Virus record (IMG/VR): IMGVR_UViG_3300027851_000094 | Location: 1 to 30,186 of that record | Source: a virus | Direction: 5' to 3' (one strand) | Length of the DNA: 30,186 nt | In this document: one piece after another, positions 3,724 to 30,186 of the stretch | Layout: each line of letters begins with the position of its first letter | How positions within the stretch are numbered: position 1 is the first letter of the stretch | Position numbers and translations under genes: made by a program | The notes under the pieces: model-generated | What the model was told of the DNA's origin: nothing | Seen by the model: the letters and a program-made list of their open reading frames with translations, nothing else | Database searches by the model: none

Positions 3724-4010
3724 CCAACATCCATCGCCTGCATGGATCGGGCCCGACGCATGGATCGGAAAAATCGCAGCGCCTCAAGCCGCGCCACTGG
3801 GTGCCGCGCGGACTGCGCGACCGCGATGCCGCCGCCTATATCGGCGTCTCGGTCAGCAAGTTCCGCGAGCTGGTGGACGACGGCAAGATGCCACCGCCCA
3901 AGCGCGACGGCGGCATTGTCGTCTGGGATCGCGAGGCGCTCGACCTCGCATTTGACGACTGGGGCCAATCGGAGTCAGGGTCGCAGGCCCGCAACAGCTT
4001 TGATGATTGA
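3720..4010 (+). CDS. Excisionase-like helix-turn-helix protein
   Basis: Residues about 33-82 contain RDRDAAAYIGVSVSKFRELV followed by a wing with GKMPPPKRDGGIVVWDREAL. This is the pattern of the HTH_17/MerR-like domain found in phage excisionases and AlpA-type regulators. At 96 residues it is a usual size. It overlaps the previous gene by ATGA and the integrase start by eight bases, a pairing typical of xis-int. It probably bends DNA at the attachment site to direct excision, or regulates integrase expression; the sequence does not separate these. Confidence 0.75.
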   Translation: MTNIHRLHGSGPTHGSEKSQRLKPRHWVPRGLRDRDAAAYIGVSVSKFRELVDDGKMPPPKRDGGIVVWDREALDLAFDDWGQSESGSQARNSFDD

Positions 4011-5076
4011 TCCGATGCGCCCGACATCGCTGCCCTTCCTTCAGGTTTATGTTGACCGCCACGGGCGGCAGCGCATCTATTACCGCCGCCAGGGCAAGCG
4101 TGTGGCACTGCGCGGGCCGCTGGGGTCGGCTGATTTCCATGCTGACTATGCCGCCGCTCATGCCGCCATGGCCTCGCCGGACAAGCCGCAGCCCGTGGCG
4201 CGGGTGGCGGACGACAGTTTCGCCGCGCTGATCCGCGCCTATAAGGCTTCGCCCGAGTTTGCCGCCAAGGCCAAAACAACACGCGCGGAATATGCCCGCG
4301 TCCTGCGCGTCATCGAAGCGGAGGATGGTCATCGCCGCCCGCGCGACATGCGCCGCAAGGATGTGCGCAAGCGCCGCGATGCCCGCGCCGCAACACCGGC
4401 CGCCGCCAATACATATCTCGGAATCTTGTCGCTGCTCTTGGGCTGGGCGGTTGAAACCGACTGGGATGAGGCGCTGACCATCAATGTCTGCGTCGGCATT
4501 TCCAAATTCGCGAGCGGTTCCTATCGTCCGTGGACGGATGACGAAAAGCGCGCCTTTGAAGCGCGCTGGCCGCTCGGCAGCAAGCAGCGCCTTGCCTATG
4601 CGCTGGCGCGCTACACAGGCCAGCGCCGCAGCGATCTTGTCGCCATGACACGCGGCCAACTCGCCGAGGGCGGCATTGCCATGCGCCAGCAAAAGACCGG
4701 CACCCAGCTCTGGATTCCGCTGCATCGCGCCTTGCGTGCCGCCATTGAGGCCATGCCCGCCGCTGATTGCCAGCATCTCACCTTTTTGACCAATGTGGAC
4801 GGCAAGCCCTTCAATGCGGTCTATTTTGGGGCATGGGTCGCGCAAGCCATCGCCGCAGCGGGCCTGCCGGAGGATTGCGTGTTGCATGGCCTGCGCCATT
4901 CGGCAGCCACCGATCTCGCCGAGGCGGGCTGTTCCACCGAAATGATCCGCGCCGTCACCGGCCATCGCAGCATGGCCATGGTCGAAAATTATACCCGCCG
5001 GGCGGACCAGAAGCGGCTGGCCAGATCGGCCATGACGATGCTGGAACAATCCGACCGCCACCGCAAAAAATCATGA
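4003..5076 (+). CDS. int: Tyrosine recombinase (phage integrase)
   Basis: The 357-residue protein performs site-specific integration and excision. An N-terminal arm-binding region (about 10-60) is followed by a core-binding helical domain (about 70-160) and the catalytic domain (about 175-345). Visible catalytic residues are R208 in TGQRRSDL, K231 in QQKTGTQ, H295 and R298 in HGLRHSAAT, H321 in TGHRS and the nucleophile Y330 in VENYTR, so the enzyme appears intact. ATG 4003 overlaps the excisionase-like gene; ATG 4015 is an alternative. The gene ends about 115 bases before a tRNA 3' segment that is the likely attachment core. Confidence 0.95.
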   Translation: MIDPMRPTSLPFLQVYVDRHGRQRIYYRRQGKRVALRGPLGSADFHADYAAAHAAMASPDKPQPVARVADDSFAALIRAYKASPEFAAKAKTTRAEYARVLRVIEAEDGHRRPRDMRRKDVRKRRDARAATPAAANTYLGILSLLLGWAVETDWDEALTINVCVGISKFASGSYRPWTDDEKRAFEARWPLGSKQRLAYALARYTGQRRSDLVAMTRGQLAEGGIAMRQQKTGTQLWIPLHRALRAAIEAMPAADCQHLTFLTNVDGKPFNAVYFGAWVAQAIAAAGLPEDCVLHGLRHSAATDLAEAGCSTEMIRAVTGHRSMAMVENYTRRADQKRLARSAMTMLEQSDRHRKKS

Positions 5077-7188: not shown

Positions 7189-7479
7189 CTACTCCGTCAC
7201 AGGCTCAGACCATGCGCCATCAACCCACTTCTGCGTTCCGTAGGCTGGCGGCTCATCAACCTCGATGGCACCCGCTGGCTTCTCAGGCCCGGCACAGGCC
7301 CCGATAAAATTGCCATCAGCATCACGGTAGTAATGCACACGCCATGTCCATTGGTTGTTGGCCCAGTACTGGTCTGTTGCATCTACTGGCGCATGGTGAA
7401 CCAGCACTGCACCATCAGGCGCGCTGCCGTCTTCATATTCACCGAGATAAACGCCAGACTGATTTACATAATGACCCAT
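7189..7479 (-). CDS. Small tail-fibre-associated protein (assembly/chaperone candidate), 96 aa
   Basis: A 96-residue soluble protein with aromatic- and Gly-rich, probably beta-structured sequence (GVYLGEYEDG, WRVHYYRDADGNF, WVDGAWSE). Small proteins of this composition commonly follow tail-fibre genes and act as fibre chaperones or tip domains. ATG 7479 begins two bases after the fibre gene's stop and has AGG about eight bases upstream; a longer frame to 7512 would overlap the fibre gene. The function is inferred from position. Confidence 0.6.
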   Translation of the reverse strand: MGHYVNQSGVYLGEYEDGSAPDGAVLVHHAPVDATDQYWANNQWTWRVHYYRDADGNFIGACAGPEKPAGAIEVDEPPAYGTQKWVDGAWSEPVTE

Positions 7480-7481
7480 GA

Positions 7482-9014
7482 TTAGCACCTGCCTTTCAAA
7501 ACAATGCACCATTTGGCCGGAGTGATTGCGAGATATGCACCCGTCGATACGTTCATTAAATAGATGGGCGCGCCGCCGACAACATAACGGGTGTTTGTGG
7601 CGTCAACGCTGCTGCCAATGACACCGGATGATTGGGGCGTTGCAGTCGCAAAGAAGTTTGCAGGCACGTCTTCATCGACTGACCATCCACCCTCAGACGT
7701 TTTACATCTGAGATAGGCTTGTACGGTTGAAAGTTTGACGCCCTTTCCATGCGCGATGGTCCCGCTTGAACTCAGCGTGATCGAGATTTCCGAGCTTTCA
7801 AAATCAAGATCGGATTCATTGCTCGGCGACATTGTTTTTGTGGTTGACGATTTGGCGCGGGCTTCTGCCGCCGTCGCCATTTGATACTGCGCCTGATGCG
7901 CCAGCCGCCAGCGCGACAGCGTGCCGTCATATTTCAGGGTGACAGATTCCCCCGGCAACAGGATCAGATCATAAGGCAGGTCAAAGCGGTTTGCCGCCGT
8001 CGAAGAGGCGCTTTCATCCGACAGCGTGTGATTATAAGCCGAAATGTTGCGATATTCGATTTCCCGGCCATCTGCCTGCGCCGCCAAACCGGTGATCGTG
8101 ACATTTGCCGATGACGCCTGCCGGATGATCGAGGCGCTTGAGAGACCGGCAGGGTTATAATTGTTCTGCGTCGTCGAGATCGAGCTCGGCGAGATGACAC
8201 CGGTTTTACTGACAGCGCCACCCATGGCGACAGCCCCCGTAACTGTCAAACTCGGCAAAGACGTGATGCTGGAACGCGACAATTCATACCAGTAACTGCC
8301 GCGCCGTTGCAGCATCACCGACATCAGATTGTCGCTCAGCGTCAGGTCCGTGGCGGTCGCCAGATAAATCTGTCCCGCCCCGCCGGCATTATGCTTCAAC
8401 ACCACATCATGCGCCGTATTGGCCGCCGTCAGCAGCAGCAATCCGCCATCGCCTATATTCGTGGTCACAATGTTGGTCAGATCATCGCTCGCCGCCGCCG
8501 CCTCGGTGTCGATCAGATGCCAGGCCCGGGACGGCGTCACACTGCCGCTCGCAATCGTCAATGTCGAAGAGGCCGTCAGGCCCGGCAAGGGATTGCCAAG
8601 CGCGAACGCATTGGAATTGGAATTGACGATCAACGGCAGGCCCGCTTTGCCGGCCGCCAGCGCTGATGTCAGCAGTACCATGAGCTCGGCGGGCGGCGCA
8701 CAGTAAATATCCGTCGTGCCAGGCCCCCAGTCGATGGCGGCATTGCCATTGGTCGAATAATAAATCGTCGTGCGGGCGAGCGTGTCGGGCGAACCATGCG
8801 TCAAGGTGCCAAGGCCGCATTCGCGATAATGGGCCGTGATCTCGCCATTGGTATATTCGATGCGCTCGGCGACATAGGCGACCTGCGCGCCATTGGCAAT
8901 CCCGTTTCGCAGCGCATCAAACCCCGCCGATGCGCCCGCCAGATTATAGGTGCCGGTGCCTTGCGTCGTCGATGTTTCCTTGGCGGCATTGACCAGCAAT
9001 CCCTGGACACTCAT
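7482..9014 (-). CDS. Tail fibre / host-recognition protein, 510 aa
   Basis: The N-terminal 110 residues (with TYNLAGASAGFDALRNGI, GLGTLTHGSPDTLART and STNGNAAIDWGPGT) match the virion-attachment domain common to siphovirus tail fibres. The remainder is low-charge, Ser/Thr/Ala-rich and probably beta-helical, ending in a compact domain at about 420-510. Its start overlaps the upstream tail gene by ATGA. It probably sits on the tail tip and contacts the host surface. Confidence 0.8.
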   Translation of the reverse strand: MSVQGLLVNAAKETSTTQGTGTYNLAGASAGFDALRNGIANGAQVAYVAERIEYTNGEITAHYRECGLGTLTHGSPDTLARTTIYYSTNGNAAIDWGPGTTDIYCAPPAELMVLLTSALAAGKAGLPLIVNSNSNAFALGNPLPGLTASSTLTIASGSVTPSRAWHLIDTEAAAASDDLTNIVTTNIGDGGLLLLTAANTAHDVVLKHNAGGAGQIYLATATDLTLSDNLMSVMLQRRGSYWYELSRSSITSLPSLTVTGAVAMGGAVSKTGVISPSSISTTQNNYNPAGLSSASIIRQASSANVTITGLAAQADGREIEYRNISAYNHTLSDESASSTAANRFDLPYDLILLPGESVTLKYDGTLSRWRLAHQAQYQMATAAEARAKSSTTKTMSPSNESDLDFESSEISITLSSSGTIAHGKGVKLSTVQAYLRCKTSEGGWSVDEDVPANFFATATPQSSGVIGSSVDATNTRYVVGGAPIYLMNVSTGAYLAITPAKWCIVLKGRC

Positions 9015-26079: not shown

Positions 26080-27843
26080 TCACATCAGCGCTCGACCGCT
26101 TTTAATCAGCGCGTCCAAATCAGGTTCCTGTGCCGCCACCAGACAGCGCCCGAGAGCCATGATGCCGGCCATCAGACTGTCGATGTGCAGGCGGCTTTTC
26201 TGCTTGTCGGGCATGTAATTCATGTTTGCATCATGCCGGAAGATCAGGCCCTGCAGCTGAGCGCGCAGCAAAGGATTGCCGCCATGGCGCAACTGTTCAG
26301 CAAAGACCTGATCCTCGAATTCCTTGGTCGGCACATTCATCGTGCGCATGCCCTGACGCATCAGATACATGTCAAGACCGTCATCATCCTTGAGCAGCTG
26401 GACCAGCGCGCGGGCGTTCCATTCATCAAAGCCGATGGACCGAATATCAAAAATATCCGCGTCAGCCTGCACCTGCCTGCGAATGGCCTTCTGATCCATC
26501 GTATTGCCGTCTGTAATCGTCAGAAAGCCAGCCTCGGCATAAAGGCGATAGGGCAGCTTTTCCTTCCGCTCCCGTTCGTCAATATCCGCGCCGACCAGAA
26601 AGCTGCGCACCAGCCAGCGCCAGAAGGGGTCTTCATCCGTGGGCGGAAATACCATGGCGAAGGCCGAGAGGTCGCGCACTGACGAAATATCCAGCGCACC
26701 ATGACAGGCACGCCCATGCAGCAAGGACTCGTCGAATGCCTCGCCGCCCTTGTCCCATGTCTCGACCGGGATGGCGGTGGAAAGAGAGGATGTCCGGATG
26801 TTCAGATAGAGGCGCTTGAAGCTCAATTGCCGAGACGGCATCGCCTTGGCCTGGATCAGCGCCCGGTGCAGTTCCGATGCCGGAATGCTGACCCCGAGAT
26901 TTGGATTGGCCTTGCCCCAGCAGGCCGGGTCCGTCCAATCGTCACCCTCATCGATCGTCGCGATGTAGGCGAAAAAGCTGTCATCCTTCAATCCGGCGCG
27001 CTTGTCGAAGCCTTCCAGAACCTGTCGCGCATATTCATGCTGTTCGGCATAGATGCTGTTTGTGACGGTCCCATCGCCCGCCGTTGTAATGCAGAAGAGA
27101 AGCGGCTGACGCCGCGAAGCGGTGGCCGTGTCCAGGAGGTCAAACACCATGCGATTTTTATGTGCATGCAATTCATCAATCACTGACGTGGACGGGTTCA
27201 GGCCGTCCAGACTATCGCTATCAGCACCCAGCGGCAGAAACACGCCATCATTGCTGATGTAATGCAGCGAGTGCGCGCGAATATCCATGCGGCGGCTGAG
27301 GGCAGCTGAGCCCTTGGCCATGCGCTTGGCCTCGTCCCAGACAATGCGCGCCTGATCTTTCTTGGTCGCGGCGGCATAGACTTCCGGCGCGCCTTCCCGA
27401 TCCGCCGCCAATCCCTTCAACCCGACGCCAGCACCCAGTGTTGACTTGCCATTCTTGCGCGGCAATTCGCCATGGGCCGTGCGAAAACGCCTTGGCCAGG
27501 TCTCAGGCACGGCGGACAGATCCGGCGTCAGGCCGTCAGCCTTGCGCGGCGCCTTCTTCCAGCCATAGATCGAGCCGATAATGAAACATTGCCAGGGACC
27601 GAGGATCAGACGCCTGCCGCGCCAGCGACCCTTGCTGTGTTTCAGCCGCTGGAAAAACTGTATGGCCCGACTGGCTTCTGCCTCATCAAACCAGATATCA
27701 GCGCGACGGCGCTGGGCACGCTTCAGGTCATGCAGATGGCGCTGACAGGCGCGCTTGACCAGATAGCCCGCCAGAATGTCATCAGCAAGAACGGCTTGAG
27801 CATAGGCCGTTACGATGTGAGGCAAGGCCTCCAGCCGCGCCAT
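26080..27843 (-). CDS. Terminase large subunit (HK97-type TerL), 587 aa
   Basis: This DNA-packaging motor has an N-terminal ATPase with Walker A at about 127-135 (LPRKNGKST), then VYAAATKKDQARIVWDEAK, and Walker B at about 219-224 (TSVIDE, D223 and E224). The C-terminal nuclease contains DISSVRDLSAFAMVFP, and a HGGNPLLRAQ...K...IDSLMAG ending that matches HK97-type TerL. It is full length and intact. ATG 27843 lies two bases after the small terminase stop. Confidence 0.95.
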   Translation of the reverse strand: MARLEALPHIVTAYAQAVLADDILAGYLVKRACQRHLHDLKRAQRRRADIWFDEAEASRAIQFFQRLKHSKGRWRGRRLILGPWQCFIIGSIYGWKKAPRKADGLTPDLSAVPETWPRRFRTAHGELPRKNGKSTLGAGVGLKGLAADREGAPEVYAAATKKDQARIVWDEAKRMAKGSAALSRRMDIRAHSLHYISNDGVFLPLGADSDSLDGLNPSTSVIDELHAHKNRMVFDLLDTATASRRQPLLFCITTAGDGTVTNSIYAEQHEYARQVLEGFDKRAGLKDDSFFAYIATIDEGDDWTDPACWGKANPNLGVSIPASELHRALIQAKAMPSRQLSFKRLYLNIRTSSLSTAIPVETWDKGGEAFDESLLHGRACHGALDISSVRDLSAFAMVFPPTDEDPFWRWLVRSFLVGADIDERERKEKLPYRLYAEAGFLTITDGNTMDQKAIRRQVQADADIFDIRSIGFDEWNARALVQLLKDDDGLDMYLMRQGMRTMNVPTKEFEDQVFAEQLRHGGNPLLRAQLQGLIFRHDANMNYMPDKQKSRLHIDSLMAGIMALGRCLVAAQEPDLDALIKSGRALM

Positions 27844-27845
27844 GG

Positions 27846-28364
27846 TCAGTCGTAAAGATCGCCCTGATCACCCGCCCCGCCGCGGCCCGCCAGACCGAGA
27901 AACTTGAGGCGTTCACGATCAGCCGGTGACAGCCCGAAGTTTGAGCCAAACTGCCCGATCGCCCGCTCATATTCGCGCGCCTGTGCAAGTTCCGGCATGG
28001 TTTTGTGCTGCTGCCCGTTTCGCCCGCGCACGACATAGGACAGCGTGCCTTTTTCCGCCAGGATCACGTTGATGCGCTCCTGAAGGGCCTGCCACATGGC
28101 GATATTGCGCGCAAGGATCTGCAGCTGGATCTGGTCGACGACCTCAAGCAGCCTGGCCTGACGCAGATGGTCCTGCAGAAAATCGAAAATCCGGCGGTCC
28201 GACTCGGTAAACCAGTCAGGACATTCAAAGCGCTCGAGCGGCGCAGTTTCCTTTGCCGCGCCGCTCTTTTCTGTCAGCGTCTCAGCACCAGATGCCTGCG
28301 CATTCACAACCTGCAAATAGGCTGGAGACGCCGACGGCTTTGGCTTGCGCCCTGCCTTGCTCAC
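27846..28364 (-). CDS. Terminase small subunit, P27 family, 172 aa
   Basis: The N-terminal basic MSKAGRKPKP tail followed by PDWFTESDRRIFDFLQDHLR and a helical core with GRNGQQHKTMPELAQAREYE and the FGLSPADRERLKFLG ending matches P27-like small terminases, which recognise the packaging site and load the large subunit. It starts with GTG at 28364. The spacing to the large subunit (two bases) shows coupling. The candidate cos site lies just upstream. Confidence 0.9.
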   Translation of the reverse strand: MSKAGRKPKPSASPAYLQVVNAQASGAETLTEKSGAAKETAPLERFECPDWFTESDRRIFDFLQDHLRQARLLEVVDQIQLQILARNIAMWQALQERINVILAEKGTLSYVVRGRNGQQHKTMPELAQAREYERAIGQFGSNFGLSPADRERLKFLGLAGRGGAGDQGDLYD

Positions 28365-28470: not shown

Positions 28471-29073
28471 TCATGAATTCAATCCTCGCATCTCCGCTTT
28501 CCCCGTACGGTCTAGGGGGTAGGGGCCGGACTTTCGCACCCCCCCACCCCTAGGGCCAAGGGCGTAGGGCATTGAAGCGTTCGCCGCGGCCCTCGGCGCG
28601 CGTCTTGGCGCCATGACAGCCCGCGCAGAGCGGCTGGTGGTTAGATCCCTGCCAGAAGAGGGGGTCATTGGGACCGACGATCCTGACGATGTGGTCAACC
28701 ACCGTTGCCGCAACCACCATGCCGCGCAGCTGGCAGCGCAGGCACCAGCGATGCCGACCGAGATAGGCCTTGCGATAGCGCTGCCATGCAGCGCCATAAC
28801 CGCGCGCGCTTGATGATGGCCGCCCTTCACGCCCACCATGTCGCTTGTAGCCATGGAAGGCTGGCGGCTGATGCACCTTGGGCGCGTCAGGCAATGACCG
28901 AACCTCGACTTATTGGGAAGATACCTGAAACAGTAACGCCCCGTCTGATCAATCAGCATCGGGGCGCAGTTCCGCAGTTCTGCCAGTAGAGGGCCAAATT
29001 TCATCCCCGATGTCAAGCGCCCGCCGATCACCATCAGGCCAACGACAAACAAATGCAGCAATATCAACATCAT
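28471..29073 (-). CDS. Possible small membrane protein, extent uncertain
   Basis: ATG 29073 overlaps the stop of the upstream gene as ATGA and opens with a strong hydrophobic helix (MMLILLHLFVVGLMVIGGRL) and about 60 plausible residues. The frame then runs without stop through the whole HNH gene in a different phase to 28471, which is improbable as one protein. The first 180 bases probably encode a real small membrane protein that either overlaps HNH or has lost its original stop by a frameshift. Confidence 0.3.
   Translation of the reverse strand: MMLILLHLFVVGLMVIGGRLTSGMKFGPLLAELRNCAPMLIDQTGRYCFRYLPNKSRFGHCLTRPRCISRQPSMATSDMVGVKGGHHQARAVMALHGSAIARPISVGIAGACAASCAAWWLRQRWLTTSSGSSVPMTPSSGRDLTTSRSARAVMAPRRAPRAAANASMPYALGPRGGGVRKSGPYPLDRTGKAEMRGLNS
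28512..28553. other. Candidate cos (cohesive-end) packaging site
   Basis: Between HNH and small-terminase genes lies an imperfect inverted repeat: CTAGGGG at 28512-28518 and CCCCTAG at 28547-28553, with further G-run and C-run pairing inside and an asymmetric CCGGACTTTCGCACC centre (28526-28540). In HK97 the HNH gene and small terminase flank cos. The position and GC-rich symmetry suggest a cos site; the nick positions cannot be read. Confidence 0.5.
28550..28894 (-). CDS. HNH endonuclease (HK97 gp74-like)
   Basis: The 114-residue protein has the HNH fold: zinc-binding CLRC (C51, C54), the DHIVRI motif with D67 and H68, N85 in SNHQPLC and CAGCHGAKT with C90, C93 and H94. HNH proteins next to the terminase help cos cleavage during packaging. 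The start is TTG at 28894, with GAGG eight bases upstream and an in-frame stop just before, so no earlier start is possible. The gene ends with TAG inside the candidate cos repeat. Confidence 0.9.
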   Translation of the reverse strand: MPDAPKVHQPPAFHGYKRHGGREGRPSSSARGYGAAWQRYRKAYLGRHRWCLRCQLRGMVVAATVVDHIVRIVGPNDPLFWQGSNHQPLCAGCHGAKTRAEGRGERFNALRPWP

Positions 29074-29801
29074 TTGCACCGCCTCACCGTCGCCTTGATT
29101 TCCTCCCAGGTGACATAACGTGACAGCCCGTCGCGAATCACCCGCCGTGCCTGCCCGTTGCGCAGATGGCCGAGCCGGTCCAGCTCCAGCAGGGGCGGCC
29201 CCTGCAAGACAGCCGCAAGCACGACAACCAGCGCTGATGCCAGCGACCGGCCCTTGCCATCCACAGGCGGGCGCTTCGTCATGTCGGCCACCCAGGGCAG
29301 GAAGCAAGCCCGCGTCACAGTCTCGACTTGCAGCCCGACAGGCACGGGCTGGCTTGGCATGCCGCCCTTTCCGCCGCCCATGCCGCCCATGTCGATCGCG
29401 CGCACGATGCCCCCGCTCTGTGCCATCTCATGCAGCCACCTGATCTCGTCAGCCGCCTCCTGATGATGCGCCCCCATCGCCTCCAGCGCGGCCAGCTGAC
29501 CTGTCATGACGGCTGACTGATCCCGCGCGATCATGCGTTCGATCAGCGGCACCGCAATCTGTGCCCGGCGCAAACCGTTCAGCCCGGAAAACGGCCCGGC
29601 CACCCGCCCCGCCCGCTCGATGCGCGCCCGCTGCAGCGCAGCTTCCACATCGGGCATGCCCGCCGCACCATCTTCCTGCGATGATTGACGCGCCCGCGCA
29701 TGATCTTCCCGCTCCGCCAGCTGGCGCTTCATCGCCATGGACAATGGCGATTGAGGCTTTTCGCCGCCGATTTTTGCCGTCTTCCGCCGCATCGCGCCCA
29801 T
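29070..29801 (-). CDS. Hypothetical phage protein at the head of the late operon, 243 aa
   Basis: The protein has a basic helical N-terminus (about 1-60), a central helical part, a Gly/Met-rich loop (MGGMGGGKGGMP) and a basic C-terminus (GHLRNGQARRVIRDGLSRYV). The frame is open upstream to 29975, but that part translates the repeat array (VECVECVEF), so the start is taken as ATG 29801; ATG 29792 with AGG nine bases before it is equally possible. As first gene of the late operon it could be a late regulator; no family is recognised, and GGKGG lacks the Ser/Thr of a Walker A motif. Confidence 0.65.
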   Translation of the reverse strand: MGAMRRKTAKIGGEKPQSPLSMAMKRQLAEREDHARARQSSQEDGAAGMPDVEAALQRARIERAGRVAGPFSGLNGLRRAQIAVPLIERMIARDQSAVMTGQLAALEAMGAHHQEAADEIRWLHEMAQSGGIVRAIDMGGMGGGKGGMPSQPVPVGLQVETVTRACFLPWVADMTKRPPVDGKGRSLASALVVVLAAVLQGPPLLELDRLGHLRNGQARRVIRDGLSRYVTWEEIKATVRRCK

Positions 29802-29824
29802 CCTGTTGCTTGCCGTCTTGTCAC

Positions 29825-30083
29825 TGTCGAATGTGTCGAACCGACTGTCGAAGCCCTGCCAAGTCCATTTTCTTTTTATCTCTATGGAGTTAGAGATATA
29901 GAGAGGGGTAAATTCGACACATTCGACACATTCGACACAGGGTTTACGCGCCTGCACACGCGCGCCCGCACACATGAGGCCTGTCGGAAATACTGTCGAA
30001 TGTGTCGAATATCTCTAATTCATCATTACTTTCATATACTTATCGTTCGACACTGCATTCGACACACCATTCGACATGTCGAA
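29825..30083. repeat. Iteron-like array: 12 copies of TGTCGAA / TTCGACA in two inverted cassettes
   Basis: TGTCGAA lies at 29825, 29834, 29846, 29994, 30003 and 30077; its complement TTCGACA at 29913, 29922, 29931, 30046, 30058 and 30070. Start-to-start spacing is 9 or 12 bases within groups. Each cassette has TGTCGAA copies on the left, an AT-rich core beginning with TATCTCTA (29877 and 30010), and TTCGACA copies on the right. In cassette 1 TATCTCTA pairs with TAGAGATA at 29891-29898. The last two copies form the perfect palindrome TTCGACATGTCGAA (30070-30083). It may be a replication origin or a multi-operator control region. The rest of 29802-30186 shows no convincing gene. Confidence 0.85.
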
Positions 30084-30186
30084 TTCCCGCGCCCCCCGCA
30101 TGAAGGAAAACACCCGCGATTGCCTTGTTTTTAGGCACATCCCTTGCGCTGCGCTGTTCTTTTGATCCCTTTGGGGGGTGGGGGTG

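Follow-up and report, generated by a model that had tools for sequence, protein, structure and literature searches.

A probable replication origin built of opposed heptamer iterons in a temperate phage contig

PICI origins comprise two sets of short iterons, opposed across an AT-rich region and located 3′ of the primase/initiator gene; in 2018 this layout was described as unique to PICIs (PMC6092414). For Lactobacillus phage A2, GenBank entry AJ251789 annotates a rep_origin directly 3′ of the primase. The sequence there has an AT-rich core, and its repeats, spaced 8 and 12 bases, oppose each other. Iteron plasmid origins, e.g. those of RK2 and P1, also place repeated initiator sites by an AT-rich region, applying longer (about 17–22 bp), mostly direct repeats and DnaA boxes. 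The array described here is a fresh example of an element type already known from the A2 and PICI origins. The initial annotation had cited no named phage element of such a layout; both the PICI/SaPI origins (PMC6092414) and the A2 origin share it.

The window is the whole IMG/VR contig IMGVR_UViG_3300027851_000094 (30,186 bases), by gene content a temperate tailed phage or prophage. Its region 29825–30083 is probably the replication origin of the phage, bound by a predicted primase-helicase of the D5_N, DUF3987 or VapE type. This assignment is based on the recurrence of similar opposed arrays just 3′ of primase-helicase genes in many phages and satellites, which makes an origin with initiator sites the best-supported of the functions proposed initially.

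Twelve exact TGTCGAA/TTCGACA heptamers in about 260 bases had been reported, and all were recovered at their positions. They form two cassettes, the first with three left heptamers, a 60-bp core and three right heptamers, the second with two left heptamers, a 36-bp core and three right heptamers:

29825–29852, plus strand: left arm of cassette 1, three TGTCGAA (29825, 29834, 29846; spacing 9 and 12)
29853–29912, no strand: core of cassette 1, 60 bp, candidate unwinding region; AT 0.60, and 0.68 over 29869–29912
29877–29898, no strand: TATCTCTA/TAGAGATA inverted repeat with a 6-base loop, in core 1
29913–29937, minus strand: right arm of cassette 1, three TTCGACA (29913, 29922, 29931; spacing 9 and 9)
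29994–30009, plus strand: left arm of cassette 2, two TGTCGAA (29994, 30003; spacing 9)
30010–30045, no strand: core of cassette 2, 36 bp, starting with TATCTCTA; AT 0.75
30046–30076, minus strand: right arm of cassette 2, three TTCGACA (30046, 30058, 30070; spacing 12 and 12)
30077–30083, plus strand: twelfth heptamer, right of cassette 2 in the orientation of a left arm

Over the whole window, 20 copies of the heptamer compare with an expectation of 3.25. When 29800–30186 was shuffled 1000 times with dinucleotides preserved and all heptamer sequences were counted, none exceeded five copies, compared with the twelve real ones. The periodicity of 9 or 12 bases was borne out in both cassettes. 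The orientation rule, initially regarded as strict, is followed by eleven of the twelve heptamers and broken by the one at 30077, which forms a perfect 16-base palindrome with its neighbour (ATTCGACATGTCGAAT, 30069–30084). A single near-miss, TGTCGGA at 29982, precedes the left arm of cassette 2. Both cores are AT-rich as proposed (0.60 and 0.75 versus 0.40 for the window). The statement that each core begins with TATCTCTA holds for core 2 (30010); in core 1 the octamer is found 24 bases in (29877–29884), followed by its inverted copy TAGAGATA at 29891–29898. As a special structure the potential hairpin was rejected, its stability being no better than that of shuffles (z −0.16).

The array is located upstream of the late operon, in agreement with the initial annotation. 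The structural and packaging genes are transcribed leftward in the order HNH, TerS, TerL, portal, protease and capsid; tail and tape-measure genes are present as well. The genes relevant here and the contig end are:

3742–5076: integrase
26080–27843, minus strand: TerL (PF03354, PF20441)
27846–28364, minus strand: TerS (PF05119)
28550–28894, minus strand: HNH endonuclease
29070–29801, minus strand: ORF of 243 amino acids between the array and the HNH gene
30084–30186, no strand: right end of the contig; from synteny, the 3′ end of a leftward primase-helicase gene is predicted here or beyond

No Pfam or PHROG family matched the 243-aa ORF. In Pseudanabaena phage Pan4, the corresponding position is taken by a hypothetical gene unrelated to it. 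Only 103 bases of contig follow the array on its right. Since the window matches syntenic phages up to the array and ends so shortly thereafter, an initiator gene is predicted to the right. A search for contigs continuing past position 30186 yielded only L005, which ends at the same G run (window 30158–30186). L005 is the sole near relative, identical over its 8082 bases, and the two contig ends lie within 8 bases of each other. The shared end is likely an assembly break, but may also be a genome end. No DNA similarity to the window was found among phages and plasmids, and L005 provided the only relative of its TerS. GC skew shows no switch along the window and, as the contig ends at the array, is uninformative on an origin.

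Gene orders in other phages and viral contigs place similar arrays next to primase-helicase genes. In Pan4, a primase and a primase/helicase are followed by a gap of 432 bases, which contains inverted repeats of 9 bases, and then by a hypothetical gene, HNH and TerS. Contig L369 carries a VapE-type helicase, the array, VRR-NUC, HNH, a TerS-like gene and TerL. The window agrees with this type of order up to the array (array, ORF, HNH, TerS, TerL). In L342, L477 and L476, a D5-type gene is followed by an array and a TerL gene, the latter with 37–43% identity to that of the window; the array of L476 scored weakly. The D5-type genes of L477 and L476 lie on the strand of the packaging genes, with the array in between. 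Among TerL-related viral contigs with an initiator, only two of eight carried an array; most TerL relatives had neither an array nor a recognised initiator in the stretch examined. Arrays were present in 6 of 12 3′ flanks (A2, T25, R18.1, Pan4, AcaML1 and Ruthiejr) and in 0 of 12 5′ flanks of the phages examined, which had been picked from hit lists and do not represent a random sample.

Enrichment of arrays 3′ of primase-helicase genes was measured at DUF3987 loci chosen by protein family alone without use of the heptamer. The genomes were alpha- and betaproteobacterial, an assignment that follows the titles of loci L137, L144 and L149. Any hexamer with tandem copies at 8–12 bases on both strands was counted as an array. 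Arrays occurred in 28 of 84 3′ flanks, in 0 of 71 5′ flanks and in 1 of 1680 shuffles. Exact heptamers gave 14/85 and 0/78, respectively, and none in shuffles. The array-positive DUF3987 loci belong to 22 of 67 protein clusters (70% identity). With the hexamer test, arrays were detected in 12 of 28 D5_N and 3 of 11 VapE 3′ flanks. Control flanks of TerL genes contained none (3′ 0/20, 5′ 0/18; 0/38 in total). For the 5′ flanks of the DUF3987, D5_N and VapE genes the figures are 0/78 plus one misassigned case; for shuffles, 1/2860. That lone 5′ hit, L454, has its D5_N match on the minus strand, indicating a strand misassignment and an array that is really 3′.

Iterons differ from element to element (TGCTA..., TGCGACA..., TGTCGGG... 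and others), with a period of 8–12 and mostly 9 bases. A detectable array is present at only about one third of the primase-helicase loci, so the association is an enrichment rather than a rule; array-negative loci may have degenerate iterons, be inactive elements or use other origins. Rhodobacterales, the order of L144, have DUF3987 arrays of opposed TGCTA/TGCGA-type units with period 9 (L276–L302). In many of these the cores are short (11–25 bp) and not AT-rich, so not all DUF3987 arrays need be the same thing. The short-core arrays are possibly an origin sub-type or a different site, and they may differ in strand opening.

The heptamer itself recurs elsewhere. The search for it that had been suggested initially revealed opposed TGTCGAA arrays in other viral contigs. 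Three of these, L067, L104 and L109, carry 7 to 12 copies directly 3′ of a DUF3987 gene; the encoded proteins are divergent, with 21–26% identity to the first of the set. In L208 an inverted TGTCGAA array follows a D5-type gene. Three tandem TGTCGAA copies were found in 91 stretches of IMG/VR, and most matches of a genome-wide pattern scan were weak ones of three copies, alongside several interspersed repeats peculiar to single genomes. Period-9 tandem copies occur within long ORFs of L028, L083 and L093 (e.g. VEDVEDVED, VEVVEVVEV); the bare three-copy pattern is therefore unspecific for origins.

Other occurrences of the heptamer have different surroundings. About 14 related viral contigs (L004, L006, L009, L017, L024, L033, L037, L039, L044, L054, L056, L080, L089, L090) contain opposed TGTCGAA arrays with spacing 11 and a core of about 80 bases between PDDEXK nuclease-like and TerS-like genes, and no primase was seen alongside. 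In L022, two mixed-orientation clusters (7310–7600) immediately precede a DUF5906-type primase gene on its 5′ side, opposite to the usual one. In Plantibacter genomes (L112, L113, L175), opposed TGTCGAA pairs at a distance of about 55 bases are numerous within one genome and look like a genome-specific interspersed repeat.

Control of paired divergent promoters by a co-operatively binding repressor was the other function proposed initially. In this reading a phage repressor or activator would bind the heptamers co-operatively and control divergent promoters between the early and late genes. The array separates the late operon from the presumed early region, a place that would suit operators; opposed sites can be operators, and one palindrome is present (30069–30084). 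However, repressor operators are usually palindromes, while eleven heptamers form directional tandem arrays. A scan of 29600–30186, covering promoters of the sigma-70-like type only, found neither a promoter nor a terminator and lends the proposed divergent promoters no support. Arrays also recur 3′ and not 5′ of primase-helicase genes. A role as operator array is accordingly unlikely.

In a further reading, the heptamers would be repeats of a pac or cos region to which the small terminase subunit binds, and the contig would end near cos; such a packaging signal is very unlikely. HK97-like phages carry cos next to an HNH gene near terS, and the array lies beside an HNH gene at about 1.5 kb from terS; the nearly coincident ends of the window and L005 would fit as well. 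However, both contigs end in the G run of the likely assembly break, in Pan4, L369, L342 and L477 the primase-helicase gene has the array directly behind it, and at many loci arrays lie 3′ of such genes with no terminase known nearby. Short tandem iterons are also used in some partition systems, and the heptamers might be centromere-like iterons of a plasmid-like prophage. The integrase of the window, the location of the array 3′ of primase-helicase genes in comparable loci and the lack of any partition family among the scanned window proteins, a subset of the ORFs, leave a partition site hardly credible.

As a replication origin, the region would act with an early primase-helicase of the D5_N, DUF3987 or VapE type. 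The gene for this protein would run leftward and lie a short way past the right contig end. Monomers of this initiator would bind the 7-base iterons of each arm, 9 or 12 bases apart and thus roughly on one helix face. The arms opposed across each AT-rich core would position opposed initiator complexes, two in all. The core would then melt and helicases would be loaded, probably in both directions. Primers might come from the initiator itself or from a partner protein. The place of the initiator gene is predicted from synteny, and heptamer binding, core melting and bidirectional loading by parallel with PICI and A2. Observed features are the array with its symmetry and AT-rich cores, its place by HNH-TerS-TerL and the fact that arrays of this kind recur 3′ of initiator genes.

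Opposed-iteron origins probably constitute a general class in phages and satellites initiated by D5_N, DUF3987 or VapE primase-helicases; they would lie just 3′ of the initiator gene and vary in iteron while keeping the 9-base period and the inverted layout. The layout called PICI-only in 2018 appears widespread in phages with structural genes of their own. The arrays of A2, T25, R18.1, Pan4, AcaML1 and Ruthiejr, although from hand-picked phages, argue against that restriction (PMC6092414) and put the uniqueness of the PICI origin layout in question. Origins of phages and satellites could thereby be sought with a simple rule open to testing: opposed heptamers with a 9-base period just 3′ of a D5, DUF3987 or VapE gene. 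Matched pairs of initiator and iteron represent material for studies on the site choice of initiators.

Compared with known systems, the window resembles the PICI/SaPI origins (SaPI and Gram-negative PICI; PMC6092414) in its opposed short iterons across an AT-rich region. Their position 3′ of the primase/initiator gene is the place predicted for the window array. PICI origins have one cassette, whereas the window has two cassettes and a predicted initiator gene. PICIs are satellites without a capsid and large terminase of their own; the window itself is not a PICI, as it carries TerL, portal, protease, capsid, tail and tape-measure genes. RK2 and P1 origins share the repeated sites beside an AT-rich region. 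An origin of this plasmid type was rejected, since the window has opposed heptamers and no TTATCCACA-like DnaA box (up to one mismatch) in or near the array. Pan4 offers the gene order of the window between its primase/helicase and the hypothetical gene, HNH and TerS, together with inverted 9-base repeats. Its iteron is of the GGGGAGGAT type, unlike that of the window, its array-adjacent ORF is unrelated to the 243-aa ORF, and its right-hand primase/helicase gene is known, whereas the window contig lacks it. The A2 origin and the similar regions of T25 and R18.1 share with the window inverted repeats of 8–12 base spacing around a core rich in AT; they likewise comprise more than one cassette and are carried by phage genomes. 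They belong to phages of Gram-positive hosts, have iterons of the ACGGGAG/GGGAGGATG type instead of TGTCGAA, and differ in the downstream genes (VRR-NUC in T25). All three lie directly 3′ of a D5_N-type primase, the counterpart of which is predicted past the end of the window contig; the A2-type feature of a phage-borne AT-rich core flanked by inverted iterons is present in the window.
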